Shown: piece by piece, positions 4,452 through 43,098 of the stretch
Layout of the letters: each line of letters begins with the position of its first letter
Position numbering within the stretch: position 1 is the stretch's first letter
DNA from: a virus
DNA length: 43,098 bases
Virus record (IMG/VR): IMGVR_UViG_3300046009_006583
Span: 1 to 43,098 of that record
Strand: one strand, 5' to 3'
Notes under the pieces: model-generated
Database searches by the model: none
Told to the model about the DNA's origin: nothing
Seen by the model: only the letters and a program-made list of their open reading frames with translations
Made by a program: the position numbers and the translations under genes

Positions 4452-5246
4452 CTAGTTCCAGAAAGACTTGGGGTCCTTCCCCATCTTCGCCGTCACTGTC
4501 TCCATGATCTCTCTTGTCATTTGCGGTGTGAGCTTTTGGCCGGACCTCACACTCACGGTATTTGCCGGAAGCGCGGCTCGCGTCGAGTGACGCGCGTCGG
4601 TGGCTTTCGACAGGACGGGTGCCTCCGTGGGCTCCGTAGTCTTCTTGGCAGCCTGAGCCAGCCGGCGCTCGTAGAGCTTTTCCTGCTGGTCGATCAGCAT
4701 CATCTTCAGCGTCTTGACGCCGGCTTCCGAGCCGAGCTGTTCGAGTTGCTGCGGCGATGCGCTGGACATGGCCTTCGTGAGCTGGTCGTGGGCCTCTCTG
4801 AAAAGCTCGTCGTCGTCCTTGAACTTTTCGAGCACCTTCTCGATGTTGACCGTCACGTTCTCTTTGTACTGGACCGTCTCGGCGCGGATCAGACGCGCTT
4901 CGAGCTCGGCATTGCGACGCTCTAGCGCGTCGAGCTTCGGGTCCACGCGCTCGTGCAGCGCCTTGACCTCGGGGTCGTAGAAGTCGACCGGCTCGGGCTC
5001 CGGCGCCGCAGGCTTGCCGCTGAGGTGGTTCTGGATGACCGCCACGAGATCCGGGTTGTTGCGGATCTGGTATCCGAGCGAGGCGAGCTCCGACAGCTTC
5101 TCCGCGCCGCCGAGTGCGTCGACGTACTGCTCGAGGCTCGACAGCCGCTCGTACTTCGACTGAAGCTCGACCATCTTCGGATCGACCGCGGGCGTCTCCT
5201 GCGTCGTCTCCTGCTCGGTCCCGTTCAATTCAAGCTGCTCTTCCAT
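4452..5246 (-). CDS. Scaffold-like protein, 264 aa
   Basis: Strongly charged and helical, with long coiled-coil-like stretches (LERRNAELEARLIRAE, EKVLEKFKDDDELFREAH). It has an acidic Gln/Glu/Thr-rich N-terminus, a Pro-rich hinge (GKPAAPEPEPVDFYDP) and a basic C-terminus, the usual design of capsid scaffolds that bind the shell through a charged tail. It lies between the portal region and the capsid gene. I chose the ATG at 5246, which overlaps the preceding stop (TGATG) and has GGAG six bases upstream; a GTG three bases earlier is possible. The function is inferred from composition and position. Confidence 0.7.
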   Translation of the reverse strand: MEEQLELNGTEQETTQETPAVDPKMVELQSKYERLSSLEQYVDALGGAEKLSELASLGYQIRNNPDLVAVIQNHLSGKPAAPEPEPVDFYDPEVKALHERVDPKLDALERRNAELEARLIRAETVQYKENVTVNIEKVLEKFKDDDELFREAHDQLTKAMSSASPQQLEQLGSEAGVKTLKMMLIDQQEKLYERRLAQAAKKTTEPTEAPVLSKATDARHSTRAALPANTVSVRSGQKLTPQMTREIMETVTAKMGKDPKSFWN

Positions 5247-5599
5247 CACTGTCTCCTGACTCCATCGGTGTAGAGTTTGTTTCCGCCTTTGGGGGAGCCG
5301 CGATAAGAGAAGAGCTTGCCCACGTTGTCGTACATGTCGTTCCGTGAGCCGCCGTGTTTGTCCGCAGACGGCGACAGGGAAAGACCCTTCGACTTGGCGT
5401 AGGCGTTGAGTTCAGAGCGGGACGAGAACGGCTCGTCGCGCAGATGCGTGTAGGTGCGAGGTCCGCCCCACTCGAAGTCGTTGACGCGGGTGATGAGGAC
5501 GCGCATCTCGTGGCCGCAGCACTCGGGCACGTCGTCGGTCCACCGATCGTATTCCTCGGCGTCGCAGAAACGGCAGTAGTAGTCGTGGAGCATCGCCAT
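5246..5599 (-). CDS. Small zinc-ribbon-like protein, 117 aa
   Basis: The N-terminus carries CRFCDAEEYDRW and, about 20 residues on, PECCGHEM: a four-ligand Cys/His set like rubredoxin-type or FmdB-type zinc ribbons. The remaining 80 residues are polar and probably disordered. It sits between portal and scaffold, overlapping both by TGATG junctions, so it should be made with the head proteins. Small zinc-ribbon proteins are often found at this position in podovirus head modules. Its role is unknown to me. Confidence 0.6.
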   Translation of the reverse strand: MAMLHDYYCRFCDAEEYDRWTDDVPECCGHEMRVLITRVNDFEWGGPRTYTHLRDEPFSSRSELNAYAKSKGLSLSPSADKHGGSRNDMYDNVGKLFSYRGSPKGGNKLYTDGVRRQ

Positions 5600-7425
5600 C
5601 AGGTGGGCGCTCCCGTCGCATTGGCGAGCGCCGAGGCGGACTCCAGCGGCGGGGCCTGACCACCGCCGGGCTGCTCGCCCTCGACACCTTCTTCGCCCAT
5701 CTGCTGCGCCACGCGCTGATCCACGACAAGCTGCTGGGCGTCTTCGCCCGCGAGCGTCGCGAGGCGCTTGCCGAGGTGGACCGGATTGACGATCGGGTTC
5801 TGGAAGCCGTTCGTGACCTGCGCGAACGCGGCCACCTTCGCAAACTCGGCGCCCGGGTCGATCGGCGTCGAGCTGTTCATCTTCACGCCGTAGTCGAACT
5901 CGCCGTTCAGATCCGAGAGCGTCGCCTTCACAAAGCCGGCCTGGACCTCGGACTCCTGAAGGAACAGGAAGTTCCCCTCGCCGATGATCGGGACGACGAA
6001 CGGTCGCGCGTCTTCGGTATTGAGAAGTGCCCGGTGTGCCGCTCGGATGATGTCAGTCCAAAAGGACTCGAACTTCGATTGGATGCGGCTCTTTGCCATC
6101 TGGCTGCCTGCGCCGATCTGGGAGGCTTCTGCCGCTGTTTGAACGTTCGCTCTTTGACCTCGATCGAAGCTGGACACACCGAGCACTTCTCGGATCTGTT
6201 CCTTGAGCTGGTACACGAGCCCGAGGAGCTGACCGTCGATGTTCCCGATCGCCACCTCGTTGACGACGCCATCGACGGCATCGCACTCGATGAACTCGAC
6301 GAGGGAGTCGGGATTGAGAAGGTTCTCGAGCTGGCCCTCGGACGAGCCGAACGCATTCTTGTTGACGAAGATGATCCGGCGGATTCGATTCGTCAGGGCC
6401 TTCAGGACGGTCCAGACCTTGTTGTACATCATCAGCTCGTGCCAAATAACCTTCGGGAACGGGATCCCGAACGGGCTGTCGAGCTGTTCGTTCAGCGTGA
6501 GGATCGACGCGGGAAGCTGTCCCCATTCGAGCGGCCAGTCGCGTTCCGCGCGCACGAGCTTGTCGCTGCCGTGGCTGATGCCGAAGAACGTCCGCTTGTG
6601 GGCGTCGTAGATCACCCACTCTTCCCACATCGAGATCATGTTCTTGTCGCCGGGCTTGGCCCCGATGACGCCCGAGTGTGTCGCGGCGGGCTTGCGGCGC
6701 TCGTGGTAGGGGCGCATGTCGTAATGGAACGTGGGCTTCCAGCCGTCCGAGCCCTTGAGCGCCGGGTTGTCCTCGATCTCCTTGCGGGATCGGTAGAGGT
6801 TCTGGAACGCGATCCACCCGCACTCGCCGTCCATGTCGAACGAGTTGACGAGCGGGTCCATGCGGACCTGCCACGGGCGGACGAACTGGATCCACGGCAG
6901 ATCGGGCGTCTGGTTCTTGAAGCGCGCGATCACCTCGCCCTTGTCGTTCTCGAACTCGACATCGGGGGTGAATCCGTGGCGGACCATGCCGAACGGGAGG
7001 AGCAGCGAGGAGAGAAATGCGCGGTCGACCTCGCGGCGGAACTTCTTCTCGCGGATCAGCGAGGTGACGATCTTCTGGTTCAGCCACGCGCGGCGCCACG
7101 CATCCTCACCCGCCGCAGTCCCGCCGAGGGGACGGATGACGGGCTCGGGGTCCTGCGCGCTCGTCTGCGCCGCCACCGTGTTGATGATGCTGAAGAGGAT
7201 GTTGCCGACGAACTCGTCGACCTCTTCGACGGCACGCGGCATCGAACTCGGGAAGTCGCCCCGGAAGCCATCGAGGAACCGCATCGCCATGTAGGACGAC
7301 GACGCGCCCTGGCCCGGGTTGTTCGACATGCTGGGGATGAGGCCCGCGTTGGCCCACTCCATGTCGGCCATTCGGAGCATGGCCTTGGCGTCTTCCACAT
7401 CGACGGTCTTCTTGGGGCGTGCCAT
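5599..7425 (-). CDS. Portal protein
   Basis: 608 residues, directly after the large terminase (TAG then ATG) and before the scaffold region. It carries portal-type features: an N-terminal Ala-rich helix region, the segment RPWQVRMDPLVNSFDMDGECGWIAF, the wing/stem stretch with DRGQRANVQTAAEASQIGAGSQ, and a long helical region just before a Glu/Gly/Gln-rich C-terminal tail. Portals form the dodecameric ring through which DNA enters and leaves the head. The length fits podovirus portals. The order TerL, portal, scaffold and capsid leaves little doubt. Confidence 0.85.
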   Translation of the reverse strand: MARPKKTVDVEDAKAMLRMADMEWANAGLIPSMSNNPGQGASSSYMAMRFLDGFRGDFPSSMPRAVEEVDEFVGNILFSIINTVAAQTSAQDPEPVIRPLGGTAAGEDAWRRAWLNQKIVTSLIREKKFRREVDRAFLSSLLLPFGMVRHGFTPDVEFENDKGEVIARFKNQTPDLPWIQFVRPWQVRMDPLVNSFDMDGECGWIAFQNLYRSRKEIEDNPALKGSDGWKPTFHYDMRPYHERRKPAATHSGVIGAKPGDKNMISMWEEWVIYDAHKRTFFGISHGSDKLVRAERDWPLEWGQLPASILTLNEQLDSPFGIPFPKVIWHELMMYNKVWTVLKALTNRIRRIIFVNKNAFGSSEGQLENLLNPDSLVEFIECDAVDGVVNEVAIGNIDGQLLGLVYQLKEQIREVLGVSSFDRGQRANVQTAAEASQIGAGSQMAKSRIQSKFESFWTDIIRAAHRALLNTEDARPFVVPIIGEGNFLFLQESEVQAGFVKATLSDLNGEFDYGVKMNSSTPIDPGAEFAKVAAFAQVTNGFQNPIVNPVHLGKRLATLAGEDAQQLVVDQRVAQQMGEEGVEGEQPGGGQAPPLESASALANATGAPT

Positions 7426-9511: not shown

Positions 9512-10279
9512 ATGCTTATCGCGAAGAAGTCGAGCTTGACGCTCGAGGATAAGGCGCTGCGGCGGATGGCCCTGGACGACTGGTGCGCCCGGCACGGCGT
9601 CGAGACGCAGCCGCCGCCCCCGGAGCGAAGCCTCACGCCGGACGACATCGCCGAGATGCTGCTGTCACGTCGGCAATTCTACGGGCGCAAGAAGCTGGTG
9701 AAGGCGGACACGTTGGCGGCCCGTCTGGCCCGAAGCGTTTCGACGGGGATCGTCCTGTTCGTCGTCGCTCTTCCTGTAGCTGGAAAGGCCCAGTCCGTCC
9801 TTGAGGGGCACAACTCCCGCCGGCTCGACGCCCTGCTCGACGAGAACGACTGCCGGAACTCGCCCTGCGATCTGGCTCCTGGCACGACGATCGACGGGGC
9901 CGCGATTGGCGGGGGCGGCGTCTCGGACGGCGACAAAGGCGACATTACCGTTTCGGGGTCCGGTGCCACGTTCACCGTGGACAGCTCGGCGGTCGACTTT
10001 TCCGAGCTGGCCGGGACAGCCACGGACGCTCAGGTCAGCGACACCCTGACGGCTTCGACCTCAACGACGGCCTCTGCCAATGACAGCGATACGTCGATCG
10101 CAACGACGGCCTTTGTGCAGCAGGAGATCGACGACGGCGACCTGCTGACGGACAACTGCGTGCTCGAAAACGACTCTACCCCGATCCCGGACTCCTGTGT
10201 GGGCGACGGGTCGGATGGCGGCGGTGGGGGAGGTGTGGGCTATGCGGAAATCGCTGCTGCTGCTTTCGCTGGCTTCTAG
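9512..10279 (+). CDS. Fibre-like protein with an internal signal/membrane segment, 255 aa
   Basis: Residues 1-70 are polar and basic. Residues about 71-93 form a hydrophobic segment ending in a possible signal cleavage site (VVALPVAGKAQ). A start at the ATG at 9656 would make this a long N-terminal signal. The rest is phage-fibre-like: GDKGDITVSGSGATFTVD, then TASANDSDTSIATTAFVQQEID, common in tail fibres and virion appendages. Residues 101-129 (RLDALL, then C-x4-C, then GTTID) match residues about 54-78 of the protein at 31225-32088. It overlaps the next gene by 38 bases. The product may be exported; function unknown. Confidence 0.6.
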   Translation: MLIAKKSSLTLEDKALRRMALDDWCARHGVETQPPPPERSLTPDDIAEMLLSRRQFYGRKKLVKADTLAARLARSVSTGIVLFVVALPVAGKAQSVLEGHNSRRLDALLDENDCRNSPCDLAPGTTIDGAAIGGGGVSDGDKGDITVSGSGATFTVDSSAVDFSELAGTATDAQVSDTLTASTSTTASANDSDTSIATTAFVQQEIDDGDLLTDNCVLENDSTPIPDSCVGDGSDGGGGGGVGYAEIAAAAFAGF

Positions 10280-11516
10280 CCTCTGGGCTGATCCCGCCCT
10301 TTCGATCGAGCTCGAGGGCTCGACGGACGCGCTGGAGATCGTCACGACGACGACTGCCGCGGTGGATTACCAGATCAAATGGGCCAATCGGACCGCCACG
10401 GCGCTCACGACGCCCGGCACGTCGGTCGGTCAGATCTCGTCGGCCACGACGACGACGGCCGTTGCGGCACCGTCTGCGTCGAACTGGCGGCTGGTGACGC
10501 AGCTCTCCGCGCGGAACACGAGCACGACCACGGCCAACGTCGTCACGGTGCAGGTCGATCGCTCAGCGTCGAACCGGACCATCTACTCGGCCTCGCTCTC
10601 CCCGGGCGAGTCGATGGCCTACGACGGCTCGAAGTGGACGCTCTACACGGCCTCGGGCATCGCCCGGGTGCAGCCGCTCACGGACTCGGGCTACAACGGC
10701 AAGACGTACAGCTTCCAGAAGGTGGGAACGGCCAAGGACGCGGCTGGCTACTGGATCAACTACAGCAAGGACGCGGGCTTCCCTGGCGCTGCGGTGCCCG
10801 GCGCTCCGGGCGTGAATGGCTGGGACACGGACTGCTCGACGGCCACCAACGCGGCAGATCCGGCGGGTGCAGCGCAGGTCGGCGCTCACCTTCTCACCGA
10901 TCCGGCGTCGGGCAACCTCTACTTGACCGCAGTCACTATCGCGGGCTCGGTTGCTGAGCCGATCCAGCTCATCGACGTGCTCTGGTACAACAGCGGCCTC
11001 GCAGTCGCGGCGGGCGCGCAGGCGATTGCGATGGGCGGTGGCCTTGGCCCTGCTCGAGACATCAACGGAAGCACCGACGGCGAGGGCGTGCAGGCAGCGA
11101 TCCTTGCTCTCTCGGCTCTCGGCAACGCGGCTGCGGTCGCGACCACCACGATCACCTACCGGGACAGCGAGGGTAACAGCCCGAACACGGGGACCTTTTC
11201 GGCGCTTGCTGGCTGGCAGTCTCCGGCAACGCCGGTCATCGGGACGTGGATGCCGTTTCAGCTCGCGGCCGGCGACCGGGGCATCCGCGAGATCTCGTCG
11301 TTCAACTCGGGCACGACGTTTACGTCGGGTACTTTTGCGCTGGTCTTGTTCCGGCCCCTGGTCACGATCCCGAACACGGTCGCGAACATTGCGAGCCCCG
11401 TCACGATCCCGGCGCCTGGGATCAGGATCTACCCCAATAGCTGCATCATGGCGATCTCGGTTGGGTCGGCTTCGGCCAGCACGCTGGCTGGGACGTACAC
11501 GATCATGGAGAGGTAA
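10242..11516 (+). CDS. Secreted protein resembling a phage surface-decoration family, 424 aa
   Basis: I place the start at the ATG at 10242, which has GGGAGG upstream and opens a textbook Sec signal peptide (MRKSLLLLSLASSLWA, cleavage before DPA). The following part (VDYQIKWAN, SATTTTAVAAPSAS, ARNTSTTTANVVTV) resembles a family of beta-sandwich proteins found near phage appendage genes; a linker with GFPGAAVPGAPG and a C-terminal beta domain follow. Such phage proteins normally lack a signal peptide, so its presence here is odd. It is coupled to the upstream gene by a 38-base overlap. Export to the periplasm or surface is the inference. Confidence 0.65.
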   Translation: MRKSLLLLSLASSLWADPALSIELEGSTDALEIVTTTTAAVDYQIKWANRTATALTTPGTSVGQISSATTTTAVAAPSASNWRLVTQLSARNTSTTTANVVTVQVDRSASNRTIYSASLSPGESMAYDGSKWTLYTASGIARVQPLTDSGYNGKTYSFQKVGTAKDAAGYWINYSKDAGFPGAAVPGAPGVNGWDTDCSTATNAADPAGAAQVGAHLLTDPASGNLYLTAVTIAGSVAEPIQLIDVLWYNSGLAVAAGAQAIAMGGGLGPARDINGSTDGEGVQAAILALSALGNAAAVATTTITYRDSEGNSPNTGTFSALAGWQSPATPVIGTWMPFQLAAGDRGIREISSFNSGTTFTSGTFALVLFRPLVTIPNTVANIASPVTIPAPGIRIYPNSCIMAISVGSASASTLAGTYTIMER

Positions 11517-27524: not shown

Positions 27525-27694
27525 TTCACCGCGGCCCGCAGCGTCGCCGCCGCGCCGAAGCCGAGGAAGCCCAGAATCGGGGTCGCCTGCTCCTGCGTCA
27601 GCACGCCCGCGAAGACGAGGCCCTGCACGAGGGCGCCCGCCGCCGCGAGGATGTAGGTCCGGTTGCCCTTGAACACGTCCAGAATCTTGTCCAC
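27521..27694 (-). CDS. Holin-like protein, 57 aa
   Basis: I chose the GTG at 27694, with GGGGGTG upstream. The product reads MDKILDVFKGNRTYILAAAG, then a hydrophobic segment (ALVQGLVFAGVL), TQEQATPILG, and a second one (FLGFGAAATLRAAVK). Many phage holin or holin-like proteins share this 'KGxxTYI..A..GVLTxEQA..LLG' pattern. It would make holes in the inner membrane at lysis time. It precedes the spanin genes and follows the lysin candidate. Confidence 0.65.
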   Translation of the reverse strand: MDKILDVFKGNRTYILAAAGALVQGLVFAGVLTQEQATPILGFLGFGAAATLRAAVK

Positions 27695-27739
27695 GTCACA
27701 CCCCCAGTAGCGCCCGAACATCAACACCCGGGCATTTGG

Positions 27740-28159
27740 TTACTCATCCCAGATCGTCAGCACCGCCGATTGCGTCCCGATGATCTGCCGAAGCCTGCTC
27801 ATTGCCGCCACGCTGGACAGCACGCCCGTCTCGCCCTTCACGCGGCCGATCGACGTTCCGAGCAAAATGCACCCCTTCGTCTCGTCGTCGGTGTTACCCG
27901 AGTGGAAGAGGACCGTTGACCGGGCAACGCCCGGCGTCGGGTAGTGGGCCACCCCATCGCCGACCAGAGCCCATGTGTTTTGGAAACGCGGCCCGTTGTG
28001 CGGGACGAGTCGGTACTCCCCGGGCTCGACGTTCGGATGCTCCTTGTCGATCCACCCCGGCTCCAGCGTGTAGGCGACGAACTCAGCACCGTGAATCCAG
28101 AGCTCCCCAAGCGTTCGGTCTGGATCGAACCAGCGTCGGAACAGGTCCAGATGGATCAC
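27740..28159 (-). CDS. DUF5675-like protein, candidate endolysin, 139 aa
   Basis: The GTG at 28159 overlaps the previous stop (GTGA). Features of the family: TLGELWIHGAEFVAYTLEP, PGEYRLVPHNGPRF, and the signature VLFHSGNTDDETKGCILLG, where the His and the Cys of GCI resemble the catalytic pair of L,D-transpeptidase-type (YkuD) folds. There is no signal peptide, so it would need the holin to reach peptidoglycan. No lysozyme- or amidase-like gene is found elsewhere, and position in the lysis cassette makes this the best lysin candidate. The enzymatic role is inferred. Confidence 0.65.
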   Translation of the reverse strand: MIHLDLFRRWFDPDRTLGELWIHGAEFVAYTLEPGWIDKEHPNVEPGEYRLVPHNGPRFQNTWALVGDGVAHYPTPGVARSTVLFHSGNTDDETKGCILLGTSIGRVKGETGVLSSVAAMSRLRQIIGTQSAVLTIWDE

Positions 28160-28554
28160 GGGGCACCCCCAAACGTCCGAGACAGCCAGCCCGCGATCCC
28201 GCCGAAGGCCGCAGCGACCGCCGCCTGGACGTACCCGTGCCGCTTCCCGGCCGCACTCTTGACCTGCGCGTCGACCCTCTGGAACTCGCGCTCGTCCGCC
28301 TTCTCGTGCGCGCCGAACCTCGCGCTGAGGTCCGTCACCTGCGTCCCGAGGACGGTCATCGCGCCGCGCAGCTCCGAGGTGCTCTTCGTGAGCTGATCTC
28401 GAGACTCGCGCGCGTGCGATTCGATCCGCTCATGGATGCGCTGCCGTGCCTCGTCGGCCTGCTCTTTGTGAGCGTTCAGGCGTGCGTCGACCGCGTTGCG
28501 CAGGTTCTCTCCGAGCGCGTAGATCGCCTGCATGGTTTCGGGATCAGCGGGCAC
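28156..28554 (-). CDS. XhlA-like coiled-coil protein with C-terminal membrane anchor, 132 aa
   Basis: The GTG at 28554 has GGGGAG eight bases upstream and overlaps the PEP-CTERM gene by 11 bases. Residues about 10-100 are coiled coil (RIHERIESHARESRDQL, ELRGAMTVLGTQVTDLSARF). Residues about 109-125 are a membrane segment (VQAAVAAAFGGIAGWL), followed by a short tail. This topology matches the XhlA/haemolysin-type proteins that assist holins. It starts the lysis cassette. Confidence 0.6.
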   Translation of the reverse strand: MPADPETMQAIYALGENLRNAVDARLNAHKEQADEARQRIHERIESHARESRDQLTKSTSELRGAMTVLGTQVTDLSARFGAHEKADEREFQRVDAQVKSAAGKRHGYVQAAVAAAFGGIAGWLSRTFGGAP

Positions 28555-28837
28555 GTCGCCGTCTCCCCAGCGCGCACAGCGCAAGTGCACCCGCCAACAA
28601 ACCGACCGACAGGGGCTCAGGCACCGCAATCGCGTTCGACACGGTGCCGTAGTTCTCCGGGTGCCCGAGCAGGTATTTGGCCCGAATCCAACCGCTCTCG
28701 ACGTTCACCTTGGCCTGCTTGCAGCCTTCGGCCGGCGCCTCGTCGTAGTGCGCGACCCGAGTCCACGTCACACCGTCCCGGCTCCATTCCATCTGGACGG
28801 GCTCGGCGCTGTAAAACTTCACCGTCTTCTCGGGCAT
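28544..28837 (-). CDS. PEP-CTERM sorting-signal protein, 97 aa
   Basis: Residues 72-75 are VPEP, followed by a hydrophobic stretch (residues 76-90, LSVGLLAGALALCAL) and RRRR (92-95). This is the full tripartite PEP-CTERM signal recognised by exosortases in Gram-negative bacteria. The first 70 residues look like a fibronectin-III-type domain (MEWSRDGVTWTRVAHYD, ending YGTVSNAIAV). No N-terminal signal peptide is present, which is abnormal for this class. However, the frame is continuous with the secreted beta-helix protein upstream except for one TAG (28849-28847) and three codons. The ATG at 28837 has AGGAG upstream and can start on its own. Confidence 0.72.
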   Translation of the reverse strand: MPEKTVKFYSAEPVQMEWSRDGVTWTRVAHYDEAPAEGCKQAKVNVESGWIRAKYLLGHPENYGTVSNAIAVPEPLSVGLLAGALALCALGRRRRAR

Positions 28838-28846
28838 CGTCGTCTC

Positions 28847-31225
28847 CTACGGCAGCGTGCAGGTCGTGCCTTCGTATCGGATCTGGGCGGGGAGCTTGCC
28901 GAGCGTGCCCGAGAAGTTGTCGTAGTAGGATCCGATTTCACCGAACGTAAACGACTCATTGCACCAGAACTCGGGCTTTTCAGTGAAGAACAGCGAAGTA
29001 GGCTCCTCACCGATCTCGGCCGACCACCCAGCCGGAACCGTCGCGCTTTCGTCCTGATCGGTCGCGGAGTTGTCTCGAACGGTCGACGTGTTCACCGCAT
29101 CGAAGTTGTCGTCCTGGTTGCAGCCTGATCCGGTGCAGCGATTGCGATACCACCACATTCGATAGATGTTGTGCGGCGCTGCCGTAGTGGTCGGGTATCC
29201 GCTGGAGTCGTAGTTTCGGGCGTTGTCCATGGTCCCCGAAACCATCTCCTTGCCGGCGTTGAGCAAGATCGACCAGTCTTCGTTCGACGCGCCCATCTGG
29301 GCCGTGGAGCTGTTCGTGAAACACGTCCCGCTTGTCGTGTAGCCACCCGTGGCAGGCGAGTCGGTAGCGACCTCTCGGCACCGATTCTTGAAGTAGGTAT
29401 GGGCAACGCCCTCACCGTTGTCGGTCGGCCGTCGGTTAGACCCGTCGAACGGCTGGAAGCTGTGTGAGCTGTCATTGCCCTCGAAGATGTGCCCCGGCGC
29501 GCCAGCGTTCCCGTGATGGAACGGGCCTCTGCCAGCGCGGAAAGTCGTATCTTTCGTCGTGTAGTTGTTCACGAAAACGTACTGCGAGCACCCGCTCTGC
29601 ACGATCTGGCTTTGCGTCGAGTTGTAGAAGACATTGTTGACAAGCTGCACGTTCGACGAACGGTTATTGCAGTAGACCATCGCGTTGTCGTACTTATCGA
29701 GGTCGATCGCGATGCCCTCGCAGGGATCGCCCGTACCCTCGGCGCACTCATTAACGCCAGTCGTCGTGTCTAGGTCTACCGTGAACGATCGGCGCGCGGG
29801 CGTCGTACTGACAAAGACGCTGGCCGTTTTGACCATCGACTTCCCGGCCAGCTTCGGCTCATCAACGTCGGTCGTGAACGCGGCAGAGTCATCGCCCCCA
29901 GCGTTGGAGAAGTTGCACGTCGATGAGTTGTCGTAGGTAATCGTCAGGGTATTGGCATCCGTGATCGCAATGCCGGTAATCTCGGCGTAGCACGTCGTCT
30001 TGAACGATCCGTTCGAGAAGTCACTGGAGTGGATCGAGACATGGCTAGCCTCGCCGGGGCCCGATCCGCCCGTCGTGATGACGTTCTGGGCGCCGACGCG
30101 AGCATCGAAGTCGTTGCGGTAGAACTGGACGTTGAACCCGTCGAGCACCCGGACGTAGGCGCCGCCGATGTACTCCGGGTACAGGCCCCACCCGACGCCT
30201 ACGAAGTAGATGTCCTCGGCAATCTCGTCCGTCTGGTCGGTGCCGCTTTTCTGCTCGATCTGCGCGACGGTATGCCCGTCGGTTTCGGCGTAGGTGTCCG
30301 TGACTTGCGTGCTGCCGCAGCTAGCCTGACTTGTGCAGTTGGTGAAGTTTGTCCCCGCGTTAGCGCCCCAGAAGTACGCCGTCGGGTTGTAGTCCATGGG
30401 CAGCGGGTTGTTGATCTGGATCTGGTTGTCACCCGTCAGTTCCGTGCAGTCCGTTCCGGCCCGATCCGACGTGCCAGACGTCGAACCGTCTACGCAAGTC
30501 ACCTCAGCCACGACGTTGAAGTTTGCCGAACCGAAGCCCTCAATCGGGTCGACCGTCAGCCGAACGATGTCGCCCGCGGCCCAGGTATTATCGCCCGACG
30601 TGGCGACCGAGCATCCGAGCTCCAGCTTCTTCGTTCCGGTGTCGTACCCGCCGGTCCAAGTGCACGACTGCTCAACCGGGCTCTGCGAGCTTCCGACGCT
30701 GATAAGCCAGTTCTTGAGCTGGGCGGCGTTGGCGGCGCCGGCCGTGTAGTCCCACTGGGGCGATCCGCTCGTGTCGTAGCGAAGCTCGAACCCGCAAACG
30801 TCGGGGTCTTCGCAGTAGATCGCGAGTCCGTCATGGCTGCCGGGAATGACAAGATCGCCAGACCCGCCGCCAGTCGTAGGCGTGATGAATGCGAGAATCT
30901 TGCAGTCGTCCGGCAACCAGATTCGCGTGTAATCGGCGACGGTCGTCGTCAGGGTCTTGAACGTGTTCCAAGTCGAGTCGTCTGCGCTGCACCCGCCGTC
31001 TTTGAGCGAAGTGTCATCCGTCCATCCGGTCCAGTCCGTCTTCGGCGGGATGTATTCCGGGTACGCGAACCGACCCGTCAGGTCTGCGATCGTGCCGCCC
31101 GGCCCGAACGTCGTCGACTCCGCGAGCGTGACGAACGTGTCCGCCGGAGGCGTGCCGGTCGTCTGGTTGCCGCCCGAGATGAAAATCGGGCCGATGAACG
31201 CGAGAGTGAGCAGCCAGCGCAGCAT
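28847..31225 (-). CDS. Secreted beta-helix protein, 792 aa
   Basis: The ATG at 31225 overlaps the previous stop (TGATG). The N-terminus is a signal peptide (MLRWLLTLAFIGPIFISG, cleavage before GNQ). A central region of about residues 320-650 has beta-helix-like rungs such as VQLVNNVFYNSTQSQIVQSG and YVFVNNYTTKDTTFRAG, plus Cys pairs that would form disulphides in the periplasm. It ends CTLP-TAG, and the next in-frame codons lead into the PEP-CTERM protein. By position it should be a tailspike; by sequence it is an exported surface protein. Which of the two cannot be settled here. Confidence 0.65.
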   Translation of the reverse strand: MLRWLLTLAFIGPIFISGGNQTTGTPPADTFVTLAESTTFGPGGTIADLTGRFAYPEYIPPKTDWTGWTDDTSLKDGGCSADDSTWNTFKTLTTTVADYTRIWLPDDCKILAFITPTTGGGSGDLVIPGSHDGLAIYCEDPDVCGFELRYDTSGSPQWDYTAGAANAAQLKNWLISVGSSQSPVEQSCTWTGGYDTGTKKLELGCSVATSGDNTWAAGDIVRLTVDPIEGFGSANFNVVAEVTCVDGSTSGTSDRAGTDCTELTGDNQIQINNPLPMDYNPTAYFWGANAGTNFTNCTSQASCGSTQVTDTYAETDGHTVAQIEQKSGTDQTDEIAEDIYFVGVGWGLYPEYIGGAYVRVLDGFNVQFYRNDFDARVGAQNVITTGGSGPGEASHVSIHSSDFSNGSFKTTCYAEITGIAITDANTLTITYDNSSTCNFSNAGGDDSAAFTTDVDEPKLAGKSMVKTASVFVSTTPARRSFTVDLDTTTGVNECAEGTGDPCEGIAIDLDKYDNAMVYCNNRSSNVQLVNNVFYNSTQSQIVQSGCSQYVFVNNYTTKDTTFRAGRGPFHHGNAGAPGHIFEGNDSSHSFQPFDGSNRRPTDNGEGVAHTYFKNRCREVATDSPATGGYTTSGTCFTNSSTAQMGASNEDWSILLNAGKEMVSGTMDNARNYDSSGYPTTTAAPHNIYRMWWYRNRCTGSGCNQDDNFDAVNTSTVRDNSATDQDESATVPAGWSAEIGEEPTSLFFTEKPEFWCNESFTFGEIGSYYDNFSGTLGKLPAQIRYEGTTCTLP

Positions 31226-32088
31226 CAGTCGGCACCCCCGTCAACCCAGGTTCCCGAGCGACCGAGGTTGATCCACGTCGAGTCGTTGACTCCGAGCAGG
31301 CAGATGAAGTCGCCGAGGTTGCCGGCCGAGTCGATCGCGTCCGCCGTGCCGACCCCCACGCCGTCAAGCACGATCTGATCGCCCGCCGCCGCATCGAGAA
31401 CGATGACGCCGCCACCGTTCGCGTCGTAGAAGCAGGACTGAAGCCCCGCGGACACGCTTGGAAGCGTGACATCCATGCCGCTTGCTCCGCTGTAGTAGTA
31501 GAACGTTCCGAGCATCTGAGCGGCTACGAGCGTCGAAGACGATCCGCCGTCTAGGCCGATGGAAGTCGCGCCCTGAATGGTCCCGGTCGTCACCACGCTC
31601 TGCGTACCCGCAGTCAGCACGAAGTCGATATCGGTAGTCGCCGCGTTGATCTCCGCCGCCGTGTCCCACTCGGTATCGAGCGTCGCGCCTGAAGCCATCC
31701 GGGCCGTCGCCAGCGTGCCCGCCGTCGCCGTCGTGATGTCGAGCCCCGTCCCGATCTTCGACCCGGACAAGCTCCCGTCTGCGAGGTCCGCAAGGTCCGC
31801 GTCGTACGCCTGCACGGTCGAGCCGATGTCGGTATCGAGCACGATCTCCACGCTGTCGATCGTCGTCCCCGCAGTCAACGCACAGGGCGCCGAGGTACAG
31901 GTGTCGGTCGCGAGGATCGCATCAAGCCGGGCGTCGTTGTCGTCGATCGCCGTCTTCGCGGCGGTGAAGTTCGCGTTGACCTGCGACGCGACCGCAGTCG
32001 TCCCGGCCGTGAACGTGTTGGTGATCGTGTACGAACTGCCCCATGCCAATGAGGGCAGGAGCGCCAGAAGAAGAACCAAGCGAATCAT
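31225..32088 (-). CDS. Fibre-like protein with signal peptide, 287 aa
   Basis: The ATG at 32088 has GGGGGTGAG upstream. A signal peptide (MIRLVLLLALLPSLAWG) precedes TITNTFTAGTTAVASQVNAN, which matches the start of many phage tail fibres and also the fibre at 40823-42178 (FVTGTTASATEVNAEF). Residues 54-78 (RLDAIL, then C-x4-C, then GTTID) recur in the protein at 9512-10279. The C-terminal half is beta-rich (GGGVIVLDAAAGDQIVLDG). The protein looks like a tail-fibre adaptor that gained a signal peptide. Confidence 0.65.
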   Translation of the reverse strand: MIRLVLLLALLPSLAWGSSYTITNTFTAGTTAVASQVNANFTAAKTAIDDNDARLDAILATDTCTSAPCALTAGTTIDSVEIVLDTDIGSTVQAYDADLADLADGSLSGSKIGTGLDITTATAGTLATARMASGATLDTEWDTAAEINAATTDIDFVLTAGTQSVVTTGTIQGATSIGLDGGSSSTLVAAQMLGTFYYYSGASGMDVTLPSVSAGLQSCFYDANGGGVIVLDAAAGDQIVLDGVGVGTADAIDSAGNLGDFICLLGVNDSTWINLGRSGTWVDGGAD

Positions 32089-32090
32089 GC

Positions 32091-33665
32091 TCACCCCCAT
32101 TCGTCCGTGTCCCAGACGAGCGCGTCCCAGTCCGTTTCCATCACATCCGCAGGCGTCTCGCCGCAGCTCGGCCGCTGGACGCCATCCGACCCAAGCACCA
32201 CCCCCGAGACGGTGCATCGCTGGATGAAGCCCTTGGAGTCCGCGTCGATGTCGATGTTGCCCACCACGTCGAGGTCCCGACCCTGGAACTCGTCCACGTC
32301 GTCGACCTCGAAGCCGTTCTGCGTCCCATTGAAGTCGTTCCGGTGCGTGCGAACGTTGCGGACCCGCATCCCATCGACGCACGAATCACCTGTGTTCGAG
32401 TTGTAGGACGCCGTGATCTGCGCGATGTCGTAGGTCGAGTCACCAAGCTCGATGCCGGCCGAGTCAGCCCGGGTCGTTCCGTTGCACGCGCCGCGAACGA
32501 TGTTGCGCGTCAGATCCACCCGCATGTCGTTGTAGGTCGTGCCGGCCAGACCGATCTGGATGCCGGATCCCCATGCGTCTTCGATCGTGTTGCCTTCGAT
32601 TCGGGTCGTGAACTTCGACGCCGCGTAGGTGTTTCCGTTCGTGACCTGGATTCCCTGCCCCACGTTGTCGGAGGTGGTGTTTTGGGCGTAGGTGAAGCCG
32701 GTGTCGTCGATCGTGTTCCCGCTTGCCGTTCCGTCGCCCTCGTTGAAGACGATGCCCGCAATCCCAGCCCCCGTGACGGTGTTGTCGTGAAACTGGCAGC
32801 GCCGGGAGTTCGTGAAGCACTCGATTCCGATCTTGGTCACGTCCGAGATGGTCGTGTTGACGACCGCCGAGTCCGACCCGCCGACGAGCTGAACACCCTG
32901 CGCTGTCTTCGTGATCGAGTTGGTGGTCGCATCCAGCGGGACAGCGAGCGGGGTACAGAGGGCAACCGTGCAGCCGGCTCTGGTGACGCTGGAGTCCTGA
33001 ACGGTGGACACGAACGGCTGGCTAAGCTGAATGCCGGTCGTCACTGTGTCTCGCACCTGAACCCGAAGCAGGCAGCTCCGCGTCGTCCCTGCCCCCGTGT
33101 TCCGAGTGTTGAAGCCGCCCGCGAATGTAGAAGTCTGGCTACCCGTGTCGCAGATGCCGTTGTTCGGCGTCGTATCCGTGCAAGCCGTTCGTGCCCCCGT
33201 AGTCTGCTCCGATCGCCGGCCATCGAGGATCACGTCTTCCAGCCTGATCCGCGGCGTGATGTTCCTCGCGTGGATGATCGCAGCGTTGACGCCGAGTTCG
33301 GCCCGCAGAACGGGCGGGTTGTTTCGGTCGGCCCCCCGAATGACCACCTCTCCGCTCGGAGCCACCGAGTCACCTTTGATCGCCGTTTCTCCGAAGATGA
33401 CGTTGGTGTCCGTGTACGTCCCAGGCGCAAGCTCAAGGATGCAGCCCGACCCGCAGTTGGCCATCGCGACCGTATGAAGGTCCGATGCGCTCGTTACGTC
33501 GACCGGCGTAAAGGCCGGATCAGGCAGCTTCGAGCAGTCCACCCACGGGTCCTCGACGACATCGACGGGCGGCGCAGACGGCCCCGCACGCGGGAAGCGC
33601 CCCTCGATCGCCGAGGCCGGTACGGCCAGCAACAGCGCGAGAAGGACGGCCAACCTCACGAGCAC
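32091..33665 (-). CDS. Secreted right-handed beta-helix protein, 524 aa
   Basis: The GTG at 33665 overlaps the preceding gene by 10 bases. It has a signal peptide (LVRLAVLLALLLAVPASA, cleavage before IEG). The rest has pectate-lyase-type rungs: DLHTVAMANCGSGCILELAP, ARNITPRIRLEDVILDG, GVQLVGGSDSAVVNTTISDV, CQFHDNTVTGAGIAGIVFNE. Such parallel beta-helices are typical of carbohydrate-degrading tailspikes and of secreted surface proteins. Catalytic residues cannot be assigned by eye. It is co-transcribed with three similar exported proteins. Confidence 0.7.
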   Translation of the reverse strand: MLVRLAVLLALLLAVPASAIEGRFPRAGPSAPPVDVVEDPWVDCSKLPDPAFTPVDVTSASDLHTVAMANCGSGCILELAPGTYTDTNVIFGETAIKGDSVAPSGEVVIRGADRNNPPVLRAELGVNAAIIHARNITPRIRLEDVILDGRRSEQTTGARTACTDTTPNNGICDTGSQTSTFAGGFNTRNTGAGTTRSCLLRVQVRDTVTTGIQLSQPFVSTVQDSSVTRAGCTVALCTPLAVPLDATTNSITKTAQGVQLVGGSDSAVVNTTISDVTKIGIECFTNSRRCQFHDNTVTGAGIAGIVFNEGDGTASGNTIDDTGFTYAQNTTSDNVGQGIQVTNGNTYAASKFTTRIEGNTIEDAWGSGIQIGLAGTTYNDMRVDLTRNIVRGACNGTTRADSAGIELGDSTYDIAQITASYNSNTGDSCVDGMRVRNVRTHRNDFNGTQNGFEVDDVDEFQGRDLDVVGNIDIDADSKGFIQRCTVSGVVLGSDGVQRPSCGETPADVMETDWDALVWDTDEWG

Positions 33666-36235
33666 GTCTCGCCGGGGCTCGGTGCCGCGGTTCCATCAAA
33701 GTTCAGGCAGCCTCGAGCGTTCGCACCGATGCCCGACCCGTTCCCGACCGTGGCCGTGCAGGTCCCATACCCGGCCGGCGTACCGCCCGCGTTGACGTTG
33801 CACCCGCAGTAGACGTGAGCCACGCCTCCGCCACCGCCCGAGCTGTCTGCGCTGTTCCCCATGAACGAGTTGAGCGCGAGCACATCCTCGTGAGAGAAGT
33901 CGTCAGGCGTCAAGCCGGTACGGTCGTTCGGGGCAGCGGTCACGTCCGTGTCGATCGCTGCGAACAGGCAGGCATCATAGGCGCTCTTCGTCGCCTTGAT
34001 CCGTCCGTTCGTGAAGTGGTTCCGCACGATCGAGGCAGACTTCGGAGCGGCAATCGTGGGACTCGTGTTCAGCGCGATGGCCGCGGTCACGTTACCCGCC
34101 AACTGCTGCGCCATTCGGACGCCCGTCGTGTCGAACCCGTCGATCACGTTCTGCTCGATCGGGGTATTCACGTCCGCGCAGTCGAACCAAGCGACCGTCC
34201 CGTTTCTGGACAGAACGACGCCCGCGCCGATGCCGAGCGTCCCTTCGATCGTCAGGTTTCGGATTGTGTTGCGACGCGCGCCGCAAGTGAACTTGAGGGC
34301 GTGCAGGATCGACCCGCCCTCGATCTTGATGTTGTCAAACAGGTTGCCCACCGAGACATCGGTGAAGTTGATGAGCGTTTCGCCCGACGAGTTGATCGCC
34401 CGGATATCCCGCCCCTCCAGACCCGGCCCGTATGTCGAGATACCAAGGCTTGCAAAGGTGGTGTCCCGGATCTCGATGTCGTGCATCCGCCACCCGGTGC
34501 CTGCGTCGAGAATCGGGCCACCTCGGCCGTAGAGGAACCGGGTGCGCCGGACCAGCGGATAGCCCGCGTTGGAATCTCCGTCGATCGCGTACTGGTGCCA
34601 GCTTCGGATTACCACGTCCTCGATGACGGGGGCTCCGCCGCCGTATAGGCCAAGCAGCGGGTTGGTGTCGCAGTCGATATCTGCGTTGGTCGAGTCTCCG
34701 TCGAGCGCAGCCGTCCAACCTCGCTCTGTCGCGTCGGCAAAGTCCATCTGCTCGGAGCAGTCGCCACTCGGCTCGGCCCAGTAGTCCTGCGGTTCGATGT
34801 TCATATTCGAGATGCGCGCGGACGTGTCGAAGTAGTCAGACCGTGCCGCGGTAACTGCGTTGCCGTTGAGAAACGTGTAGGCGTACGGGATGCTGCCACC
34901 AGCGTAGGAGGTGTTGTTTCCGAGGTAGCCGTAGAAGCCGCCGAGCAAGACGCGGATAGTGCCGGCGCCGTTACAGGTCGAAACGGAGGGCGTGTCCATC
35001 ACGCGGGCAGCAAAGGCCACCGTCGCGGAGCCACCGCCGAGCGTTCCGCTCTGGCCGTAGACGATGAGGTGATCGCCAGCCACGAGCGTGTCGAGGCCGC
35101 TCGTGTTCGCGACGCAGATACCGGCGTTGTCTTCGATCGTCGCAATCGTCTGCGTGCCGCTGACCGTGCCGTACCCCTTCGAGTCGCCGTCGCCCGCAGA
35201 TTCTCCAGACGCAACGCCCGCCGAAGTGGAAGCGGTGTGCGGACCCTGGAAGCCGAACGTGATGCCGCGAATAAAGCTCGTCTGACCAAACCAGTTGTTG
35301 TTGCCGCTGTTCGTTCCCGATTCCCAGCTCGGGCCTCGGTCATCCACGAGATAGGTGCCTTGGTCGCGGATGTAGCCCGTCGTCGTCGACGGGTCGCGGG
35401 TGTCAGTCCCCGCCCCGATGATCTCCCCCTGCCAGTCCATGAGGTTGATCGTGTAGAACCGCCGAGTCGTGTCGGGGTCGGGGGTGGCTGGGCAATGGAG
35501 CCATGCGGCGTCGGCGGTCGAGTCGTGCAGGTTGTCGTTCGCCGGACCCCGAGCGTTGTACCCCGCGCTCTGCTGGTAGTCGTAACAGGGCCAGTTGACG
35601 TAGACGCCCTCCTCCAAGTAGATCGTTCCCGTCAGCTCCATTGAGCCATAGCCGCAGTCCCAGAGGGCGCAGTTCAGATCGTCCGCCAAGTCGACGTAGA
35701 CGCGCTCGCCCGCAGCCTTGCACGCGGGATCGGGGATGTCCTTCGCGGTACACGTCTGCCACACGCTGCCGTCGCCATCGGCGTCCCACAGGACGGCCCA
35801 GTCGTACTCGCCATCGTTGTCGAGGTCGGGGTCGCCGCCGCCGCCCGCACCACCCAGACTCAACGGGCTGCACAGGATGGTCAGCGTCGAACCCCCCGAA
35901 GCGCCGTTCGAGACGGCGTAGAGATTGGGCTGCCCGATCGTGAGCTCTCGAGGACTCGTCGTCGTCGTCGAGAATGTCGCGCCGAGCTGGACGCCACCCG
36001 TCGCCGTGCTTGCAGTCGTCTGGTACAGCGTGATCGTGTCCGACCCGCCGCGAGTGAACGTCGCCTGACAGGAACCCATTGCTCCAAACAGAGGCGTGGG
36101 CTCGGTCGTAGCGTCGAACTTCCAGGTGATCGTCTGCGCGCTGCCGATGTAGTTCGGCCCGGACATGGAAGGCTTCGCCCACCCTGGCGACGCGGCCAGG
36201 AAGACGAGAACGAGAGAGAAGAGAATGTGTTTCAT
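33656..36235 (-). CDS. Large secreted beta-helix protein, 859 aa
   Basis: I chose the ATG at 36235 (MKHILF), which has GGAG nine bases upstream; a start at 36250 adds five residues and spoils the signal peptide. The signal peptide is MKHILFSLVLVFLAASPGWA. A beta domain is followed by a Ca-binding-like Asp-rich segment (DPDLDNDGEYDWAVLWDADG, about residues 135-157), as in thrombospondin-type-3 repeats. Long beta-helix rungs come next (IEDVVIRSWHQYAIDGD, RMHDIEIRDTTFASLGI), then a Cys-containing end. It is the first of the four exported proteins after the ejection genes. Confidence 0.68.
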   Translation of the reverse strand: MKHILFSLVLVFLAASPGWAKPSMSGPNYIGSAQTITWKFDATTEPTPLFGAMGSCQATFTRGGSDTITLYQTTASTATGGVQLGATFSTTTTSPRELTIGQPNLYAVSNGASGGSTLTILCSPLSLGGAGGGGDPDLDNDGEYDWAVLWDADGDGSVWQTCTAKDIPDPACKAAGERVYVDLADDLNCALWDCGYGSMELTGTIYLEEGVYVNWPCYDYQQSAGYNARGPANDNLHDSTADAAWLHCPATPDPDTTRRFYTINLMDWQGEIIGAGTDTRDPSTTTGYIRDQGTYLVDDRGPSWESGTNSGNNNWFGQTSFIRGITFGFQGPHTASTSAGVASGESAGDGDSKGYGTVSGTQTIATIEDNAGICVANTSGLDTLVAGDHLIVYGQSGTLGGGSATVAFAARVMDTPSVSTCNGAGTIRVLLGGFYGYLGNNTSYAGGSIPYAYTFLNGNAVTAARSDYFDTSARISNMNIEPQDYWAEPSGDCSEQMDFADATERGWTAALDGDSTNADIDCDTNPLLGLYGGGAPVIEDVVIRSWHQYAIDGDSNAGYPLVRRTRFLYGRGGPILDAGTGWRMHDIEIRDTTFASLGISTYGPGLEGRDIRAINSSGETLINFTDVSVGNLFDNIKIEGGSILHALKFTCGARRNTIRNLTIEGTLGIGAGVVLSRNGTVAWFDCADVNTPIEQNVIDGFDTTGVRMAQQLAGNVTAAIALNTSPTIAAPKSASIVRNHFTNGRIKATKSAYDACLFAAIDTDVTAAPNDRTGLTPDDFSHEDVLALNSFMGNSADSSGGGGGVAHVYCGCNVNAGGTPAGYGTCTATVGNGSGIGANARGCLNFDGTAAPSPGETCS

Positions 36236-40822: not shown

Positions 40823-42178
40823 CTAGATCCTTTCCACGACGAGGCGGGCGCGAGACTGCGTGGCGAGCCCGGTCGCTACCGTGGGATTAAAAATGATCGT
40901 CCCGGCGCCGTTGCCAGACCCCTCGGTGTACACGTCGGTCGTAAAGGCGTAGGTCGATCCGGGGGTCGGGTTGTCGACGATGTAGCTGAGCGTCACAGTC
41001 CCGCCGCTGAACTCGTTGTTTCCCGAGTAACAGGTTCGCCATGCGTACGGCCCTTCGACCGTCGTCGCCGGGTTGGCGTCGATTGTCTGCTGAATGCGGA
41101 AGGCGTACTCGGTCTGCTCAGTACCACCGCCGCCGGTCGTGCTCTTGAAGCAGAGCGTGACTTCGTACATAAGCCGGTATCCGGCGTACGGGATGTACTG
41201 GGAAAGAGAAAGGCCGGATCGGTTGCTCCAGGCACCCGCGCCCGCGTTCGTCAGCGTGTCATCAGCCGTCGAGTAGACGGCCGTTCGGGTCGGGATGCTC
41301 GGCACCTCGTGCGGATAGGCATCGGCGAGCTCGAAGGCCCAGACCTCGAAGATGTTCCAGTCGGCGCCGGTCGCCGTACCCGTGATCGAAACCGTGATGT
41401 CGCCCGGGGCCGTCGTCGGCTTGACGATGCCCTGCGTGATCGTCACGGCGGTCGATGCGGTCGTCGAGTCCGAGATCGAGATGTTGCTGTAGTCGCCCGA
41501 CGCAAGGGCGCCGGTCGTAGACAGCGTGATCTCGCCCGCCGTCCTCGAGTACGCCATGCCGATCAGGTACTTGGTGTCGGTCTTGAGGCCCTTCAGCGTG
41601 AACGAGATGCCCTCGTTGCTGGCATCCGTCAGGATCCGCAGCGACCGCTTCTCGACGCCGATCTCGGTGTGGTTCGCGTTCGGGTTCTCGATGACCACAT
41701 CGGCCGGAGTGCCAACCAGAGTCCAACTGTTCGGGGCCTGCGTTGCCGTCCCTGTGTGCAGCTCGAATCCAGGGTTCTGGATCATGTTCCGGCCGACGAT
41801 GCACGGCTCAAACCACGCTGCCGCCGTCGCCGACCCGGTGTCCATGTAGTAGACGTTCGTCAGGTAGCCGCGGCTGGCGCCGAGCCGGTACCGAAGGCGG
41901 ACCATTTCCTGCGAGAGAGTGGCGGGAAGGCTCGGGGTTCCGGTATCGCCCGGATTCGTCGTCGCCGAGTAGGCTGCAATATCGTCCGCGAGGTCGAGAA
42001 CCTTCGACATTGCGATGTCGGCAAGCTGCGCGTTCGTGATCGCAGCCGAGCCCGACAGGTTCGTCGTGTCGAGGTTGCCGTTCACGGTCGACAGGATGTT
42101 GTCGAACTCGGCATTGACTTCGGTCGCGCTCGCCGTCGTCCCGGTCACGAAAGTAGTGATTCTGGAAATGAAGCTCAT
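40823..42178 (-). CDS. Tail fibre / appendage protein, 451 aa
   Basis: The N-terminus FISRITTFVTGTTASATEVN and the following AEFDNILSTVN form the adaptor motif shared by many podovirus fibres that bind to the tail. A carbohydrate-binding-like beta domain follows (MIQNPGFELHTGTATQAPNS, then WTLVGTPADV), as in CBM-like modules, and the C-terminal region is beta-rich. No signal peptide is present, unlike the fibre-like proteins further along. The ATG follows the nozzle stop directly (TAAATG). It is the only normal-looking, non-secreted fibre and probably the adsorption fibre. Confidence 0.7.
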   Translation of the reverse strand: MSFISRITTFVTGTTASATEVNAEFDNILSTVNGNLDTTNLSGSAAITNAQLADIAMSKVLDLADDIAAYSATTNPGDTGTPSLPATLSQEMVRLRYRLGASRGYLTNVYYMDTGSATAAAWFEPCIVGRNMIQNPGFELHTGTATQAPNSWTLVGTPADVVIENPNANHTEIGVEKRSLRILTDASNEGISFTLKGLKTDTKYLIGMAYSRTAGEITLSTTGALASGDYSNISISDSTTASTAVTITQGIVKPTTAPGDITVSITGTATGADWNIFEVWAFELADAYPHEVPSIPTRTAVYSTADDTLTNAGAGAWSNRSGLSLSQYIPYAGYRLMYEVTLCFKSTTGGGGTEQTEYAFRIQQTIDANPATTVEGPYAWRTCYSGNNEFSGGTVTLSYIVDNPTPGSTYAFTTDVYTEGSGNGAGTIIFNPTVATGLATQSRARLVVERI

Positions 42179-43098
42179 TTATCCCACCGGGTTCGCTTGC
42201 GCGTCGGCGGTTGCGCCGGACACGAAGACTTCTTGAGTCAGTGAACAGATCCAGAAAGGCTGGTTTGCCGTCGAGTGCGAGAAGCGGTGAGCCACCGTGG
42301 GCGACGTGCCGACCGAAGACACGCGATGGCGAATCGTCGCCTCGTTCGAGCCCCACTCGGCCTCGCCCCAGTTGAATCCACCCCAGAGCGCGCCGCCGCC
42401 CGGGGACGCAACCAGCGTCGTCTGCCCGAGCCGCTGCCCGTCGTCGAGGAGGAGCTGGTGGCTGATGTTGTACGAGCCGTTGCCCTGAAGCGCGACGAAC
42501 GTGTCGCCGATCGTCTTCTGCTTGTACGGCATGTCGTAGTCGTCGTTCTTCGTGATGAAGTCCGAGGCAATCCCGGCGTCCATATCGCTGTAGACGTTTC
42601 GGCCGAATCGCATCACGCGGCCCGACAGATCCCCGACATAGACGTACGGGACATCATCCGTTCCACGGGAAACGGTGATGAAGTTCGGGTTGATCCCGCT
42701 GAAGTCCCACTTGTACCAGCGCACCGTCTCGTGCGTGAGTACGGTCGCGTCCTTGATGTCCATGCACAGGATCAGGTTGTGGGTCGAGCTCGAGCCCGTC
42801 GTCACGAGGAAGAGCACCAGCCCCTCGTTGGGCCAGTACGTCCCGCTCGCGTACTTGAGCCTCGATCGGTTCAGCGAGTCGAACGTCTTGCGGATCGGCC
42901 ACGACAGATAGTTGCTCGCGGTGTTGCCGTATTCCTTCGACTGGACGAGCGAGTGGATGCCGTCCTGGCTCAAATAGACCGCATCGCCGACATCCACGCC
43001 GAGGTTCACGAAGGCGTTCTGCCCGACGCACCCGGTCTGGATCGAGTCGACCATCGTAAATGCGGTCGAGTTGCCGGCTACGGCGGGATTGGGCGCAA
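42179..43098 (-). CDS. Tail nozzle / DNA-stabilisation-like protein, C-terminal part
   Basis: This is the rest of the gene that begins at 923; bases 42973-43098 repeat 2-127, so the full product is about 571 residues. Here the propeller-like blades continue (GDAVYLSQDGIHSLVQSKEY, YVYVGDLSGRVMRFGRNVYS, HQLLLDDGQRLGQTTLVASP) and Trp-rich GGFNWGEAEWG lies near the end. The frame ends in TAA just before the fibre ATG. The function is as given for the N-terminal part. Confidence 0.72.
   Translation of the reverse strand, partial: APNPAVAGNSTAFTMVDSIQTGCVGQNAFVNLGVDVGDAVYLSQDGIHSLVQSKEYGNTASNYLSWPIRKTFDSLNRSRLKYASGTYWPNEGLVLFLVTTGSSSTHNLILCMDIKDATVLTHETVRWYKWDFSGINPNFITVSRGTDDVPYVYVGDLSGRVMRFGRNVYSDMDAGIASDFITKNDDYDMPYKQKTIGDTFVALQGNGSYNISHQLLLDDGQRLGQTTLVASPGGGALWGGFNWGEAEWGSNEATIRHRVSSVGTSPTVAHRFSHSTANQPFWICSLTQEVFVSGATADAQANPVG
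42973..43098. repeat. Terminal overlap, right copy
   Basis: The right copy of the 126-bp overlap. The base just outside it differs (42972 is A, base 1 is G). Merging the copies gives a genome of about 42,971 bp. Confidence 0.9.

Follow-up and report, generated by a model that had tools for sequence, protein, structure and literature searches.

The window analyzed here is an entire virus record of 43,098 bases. The features that matter for this report all lie on its minus strand and are given below by descending coordinate.

32091-33665, minus strand: Beta_helix protein (PF13229), with a signal-peptide-like start judged by eye
31225-32088, minus strand: tail-fibre-like protein with a signal-peptide-like start
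28847-31225, minus strand: 792-aa ORF with a signal-peptide-like start and no family match
28835-28849, minus strand: junction TAGGAGACGACGATG, consisting of the upstream stop, a Shine-Dalgarno AGGAG, a 6-base spacer and the start of the 97-aa gene
28544-28837, minus strand: 97-aa ORF, residues 73-97 of which form a PEP-CTERM tail (VPEP, hydrophobic stretch, RRRR)
28156-28554, minus strand: 132-aa protein in which a coiled-coil appearance and a hydrophobic stretch at the C-terminus were noted by eye
27740-28159, minus strand: DUF5675 protein (PF18925)

A preliminary description of this DNA noted that the 97-aa and 792-aa ORFs share one frame and proposed that read-through of the stop between them could yield a single tagged protein. 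Reading the sequence directly, we found the two ORFs in the same frame with TAG GAG ACG ACG ATG between them, and the hypothetical read-through product would indeed have the 893 residues (792+1+3+97) calculated earlier. The TAG of the 792-aa gene lies within TAGGAG, which matches the Shine-Dalgarno consensus at 5 bases and is located 6 bases before the ATG of the 97-aa gene. Among the ORFs that we selected as genes (the lists used for the stop, Shine-Dalgarno and frame counts are our own choice and not gene-finder output), a Shine-Dalgarno match of at least 5 preceded 9 of the 31 examined, the 97-aa gene included, as compared to 2.4% of 941 ATGs on both strands, and TAG served as the terminator in 8 of the 31. 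Since 6 of the 18 adjacent same-strand pairs were in frame, the 97-aa/792-aa pair counted among them, the shared frame occurs at no more than the chance rate and is uninformative. In another of the in-frame pairs, the TAG stop of a terminase-like gene is followed immediately by the ATG of a portal-like gene; both names come from PHROGs matches that are weak (E 1.3e-4 and 3.1e-4).

To the 97-aa protein, a scan of viral contigs returned two relatives, in the records IMGVR_UViG_3300042465_003868 (L002) and IMGVR_UViG_3300035187_001832 (L003). The two are identical across the 97-aa gene and were treated as one haplotype, which differs from the window at 26 of 291 bases. The preliminary description had suggested examining homologous phages for conservation of the TAG, and we found that the stop, the start and TAGGAGACGACGATG were identical in L002 and L003. 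The changed codons between the window and L002 comprised 19 synonymous and 4 non-synonymous ones (dN 0.023, dS 0.376), with 7 and 2, respectively, in residues 73-97; this estimate is a single comparison, and the Arg codons of the tail extend into the region where the next gene starts. The substitution pattern speaks for constraint at the protein level and for a conserved 97-aa protein. In the alignment of the window with L002, the identical run that spans the junction was 68 bases long. We rejected this run as a sign of special conservation, because nine other identical runs were as long or longer (488, 101, 101, 89, 84, 80 and three of 68 bases), six of them longer. The more distant relative L008 was without the 97-aa gene and its slot held a different small protein: before the counterpart of the 132-aa gene we noted a 63-aa frame whose signal looks like that of a lipoprotein (lipobox by eye). 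From this one comparison, the slot may host small envelope proteins of varied kinds.

We analyzed the tail of the 97-aa protein with curated models. The protein scored 20.1 bits with TIGR02595 (21.8 bits in the genome search) against a cut-off of 16, while PF07589 gave 20.5 against a gathering score of 20.7, just under. The PEP-CTERM tail claimed earlier for this phage protein was therefore confirmed by the first model and fell marginally short with the second, and the C-terminus carries all three parts of such a tail, namely the PEP motif, a transmembrane helix and a basic cluster. As a control, TIGR02595 was run on 50 other viral records; it exceeded the cut-off in 5, all of which had been preselected for showing the motif, and in none of the remaining 45, where one weak match of 14.9 bits was seen. 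We also agree with the preliminary description that the 97-aa protein has no signal peptide: it lacks a hydrophobic N-terminus, its highest 15-residue Kyte-Doolittle mean outside the tail was 0.21, and an earlier start is excluded because there is an in-frame TAG upstream. On the other hand, the FN3-like domain that had been assigned to it received no FN3 match in Pfam, PHROGs or NCBIfam searches. The predicted model of the protein had a mean pLDDT of 47 and five short strands and was too poor for a fold search, and a PDB sequence search gave no match up to E 1.

The 792-aa protein has an 853-aa counterpart in L002 with 41% overall identity, in which the ends are conserved and the middle is divergent; by analogy, we infer a possible resemblance to modular receptor-binding proteins. 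Of the two features proposed earlier for it, the signal peptide was upheld in part, since the start is signal-peptide-like by a heuristic of our own that also fired on probable non-genes. The beta-helix rungs were not borne out: no match was found in Pfam, PHROGs or NCBIfam, and the AlphaFold model, with a mean pLDDT of 28, was too poor for a fold search.

Within 28847-36235 (minus strand), signal-peptide-like starts were seen on four consecutive late genes, at 28847, 31225, 32091 (by eye) and 33656, and one further gene with such a start lies at 10242-11516 (plus strand). L008 has two large genes with signal-peptide-like starts in the corresponding place. In addition, L008 positions 2493-2684 and 5171-5617 contain small signal-bearing frames with calcium-loop-like ends, which by eye we take to be dockerin-repeat-like; Pfam gave no match to either frame. 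The tail-fibre-like protein belongs to a family with an N-terminal motif (...SQVNANF) that has two members in the window, one with the signal-like start (31225-32088, minus strand) and one in which it is absent by eye (40823-42178, minus strand). Seven distant relatives of this family (L150-L156, 5 distinct) were compared, and 6 of them (4 distinct) had no signal-like start, the one with such a start being L152.

On the other side of the 97-aa gene, the 132-aa gene begins with a GTG and shares 11 bases with the 3' end of the 97-aa gene; its product is 98% identical in L002 and 56% in L008. The next position is an endolysin slot (window 27690-28159; L002 6329-6739), which holds DUF5675 in the window and an Amidase_2 protein (PF01510) in L002 and L008. 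Behind the DUF5675 gene, the window retains DNA resembling the 3' end of the amidase gene, as would be left after a recombination swap. Further on there are, judged by eye, a small membrane-protein frame and overlapping Rz/Rz1-like frames, and Pfam found no match in those of the small membrane-protein and Rz/Rz1-like frames that were tested. With regard to the genome as a whole, L009 carries the gene of window 923-1933 and, about 840 bases later, the gene of window 42179-43054; since this order nearly joins the ends of the window, the genome is probably circular or permuted. The capsid protein was similar to those of seven phage records at 22-28% identity, including the Myxococcus phages Mx8 and Mx9, Stenotrophomonas phage BUCT555 and a Bradyrhizobium phage, a similarity that does not identify the host.

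PEP-CTERM tails in viral contigs are not unique to the present phage. The available parts of a study on hot-spring viruses describe 13 proteins derived by horizontal gene transfer with a putative exosortase interaction domain (PMC11003980), and we detected PEP-CTERM frames in at least five other IMG/VR records (L022, L032, L090, L106 and L108). The scan of records behind this count used one codon spelling of the motif and considered at least 120 loci, 6 of which, including the L002 contig, passed the filter, so it gives no frequency. Among the matches listed there were 8 PEP-CTERM frames in the five records; seven scored clearly above the cut-off and one reached 15.8 bits, or 16.8 with its neighbours. 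Phage-type genes were present at four of the five listed loci, L032 falling outside that test. Paired PEP-CTERM frames occurred in L090, L022 and L032, again among the matches listed. By eye, 7 of the 8 listed frames had a signal-peptide-like start, the eighth being a 144-aa frame that is probably broken. Because of this, the absent signal peptide is a real oddity that sets the 97-aa protein apart.

Taken together, we consider it probable that the locus consists of two separately translated late genes that are coupled, the second encoding a conserved protein that is held in the inner membrane and bears a captured PEP-CTERM tail. The TAG would have two roles, terminating the 792-aa gene in the normal way and opening the ribosome-binding site (TAGGAG) of the 97-aa gene, and ribosomes that finish the 792-aa gene could begin the 97-aa gene. 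The 97-aa gene sits just upstream of the lysis genes, where these border on the genes whose products look exported. The PEP-CTERM tail makes up the last quarter of the 97-aa protein; it was probably acquired from a surface protein of the host, at whose end it stood, and most likely keeps the 97-aa protein in the inner membrane. This explanation builds on the start signal, the conserved stop and start, the protein-level conservation and the motif; coupling, membrane insertion and capture from a host are what we infer from them. As a point against the capture step, tblastn against phages and plasmids and a scan of genome_contigs returned no relative of the 97-aa protein; a genome_contigs scan with the capsid protein likewise gave none. 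Use of the tag by itself is the sole remaining one of the four options listed in the preliminary description, although without a signal peptide it misfits the published exosortase route. According to the available parts of two surveys, a signal peptide is present on about 97% or all of PEP-CTERM proteins (PMC1569441, PMC3237569), and against the two-gene explanation it must be said that a separate PEP-CTERM protein without one is anomalous by these accounts, while a read-through form would fit them. The available literature on PEP-CTERM and exosortase in phages, prophages and viruses contained, in the parts accessible, no description of a phage PEP-CTERM protein lacking a signal peptide. As a separate protein, the 97-aa product would either need its tail for membrane insertion or fall outside the substrates of exosortase altogether. 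Against insertion by the tail, the basic cluster favours the inside, and with the N-terminus in the cytoplasm this orientation would be wrong.

If the sorting tail was not captured, the main alternative is that the 97-aa protein is a membrane protein of the lysis region (a holin, a regulator or the like) with a tail that is PEP-CTERM-like but not an exosortase substrate. The two explanations have the same gene boundary and differ on the tail. We regard the lysis-region membrane protein as possible but doubtful. The endolysin slot is the second gene downstream of its own, the small membrane-protein and Rz/Rz1-like frames follow that slot, and the missing signal peptide also speaks for it; however, the tail scores above the cut-off of a curated model with which none of the 45 other viral records did so, and no lysis family match to the 97-aa protein was found in Pfam, PHROGs or NCBIfam.

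It seems rather unlikely that the phage exploits exosortase in a manner unknown from host proteins, either through low-level amber read-through that tags the exported 792-aa protein or through a tail-inserted 97-aa protein that would offer its PEP motif to exosortase from within the membrane and so act as a decoy or inhibitor of host sorting late in infection. An old split, in which a stop and a new start cut an ancestral gene for a signal peptide, a domain and a PEP-CTERM tail into halves that are now separate, would account for the in-frame order and the complementary parts. We nevertheless judge it unlikely, as no unsplit relative appeared in scans with the 97-aa protein, the 792-aa protein, the C-terminus of the latter or the neighbouring protein. 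By tblastn, the 792-aa protein had no relative in phages or plasmids and its L002 counterpart had none in phages. When viral_contigs was scanned, the 792-aa protein found nothing, an alignment of its C-terminus found the L002 and L003 contigs and no others, and the neighbouring protein and its alignment found L002 and L003 plus L008, the last of which is without the 97-aa gene.

Amber read-through, whether programmed or basal, would extend a fraction of the 792-aa protein by 101 residues and provide it with a PEP-CTERM tail for anchoring by a host exosortase. The product would match the published layout of signal peptide, domain and PEP-CTERM, and the stop is identical in both haplotypes. At such divergence, however, two ordinary adjacent genes would give an identical picture, and with nine other identical runs as long or longer the conservation of the junction is unremarkable. 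A frame reached by read-through would be expected to have no start signal of its own, while the 97-aa gene has one (AGGAG, 6 bases, ATG). We found no tRNA gene in the window, and the RNA fold at the junction was ordinary, with a z of 0.67 and a stability that 148 of 200 shuffles equalled or exceeded; neither a suppressor tRNA nor a stimulating RNA structure was thus detected within the window. Since the stop is embedded in a Shine-Dalgarno site, TAG is in ordinary use, a window tRNA is lacking, the fold is ordinary and the frame is shared at the chance rate, the programmed read-through suggested earlier is not supported, and we consider read-through of any kind quite improbable. That one continuous gene was interrupted by a sequencing or assembly error or by a recent nonsense mutation has frame continuity as its only point in favour and is very unlikely, to the point of being negligible, because two records that have diverged from the window (dS 0.38) share its stop and start, and an identical error would have had to arise in each lineage.

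Since the evidence favours an ordinary gene boundary, the locus is of little importance as a case of read-through. Phages equipped with surface-sorting tails of their hosts could change the surface of the host or be processed by it, and the 97-aa protein would provide a test of whether exosortase needs a Sec-exported substrate. With its conserved PEP-CTERM tail and no signal peptide, it is an exception to both surveys as far as their available parts go (PMC1569441, PMC3237569). Compared to PEP-CTERM/exosortase (EpsH) sorting as described in the available part of the first survey (PMC1569441), the likeness consists of the C-terminal motif, the hydrophobic helix and the basic cluster, with TIGR02595 above its cut-off; the differences are that the 97-aa protein is phage-borne and without a signal peptide. 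The frames in L022, L032, L090, L106 and L108 have the same tail but differ from the 97-aa protein in the signal-peptide-like start carried by 7 of the 8 listed. At the gene boundary the locus is like translationally coupled pairs, in which a stop inside the Shine-Dalgarno site of the next gene is a common arrangement: the stop forms part of the ribosome-binding site, the spacing is short, and no difference from such pairs is apparent.
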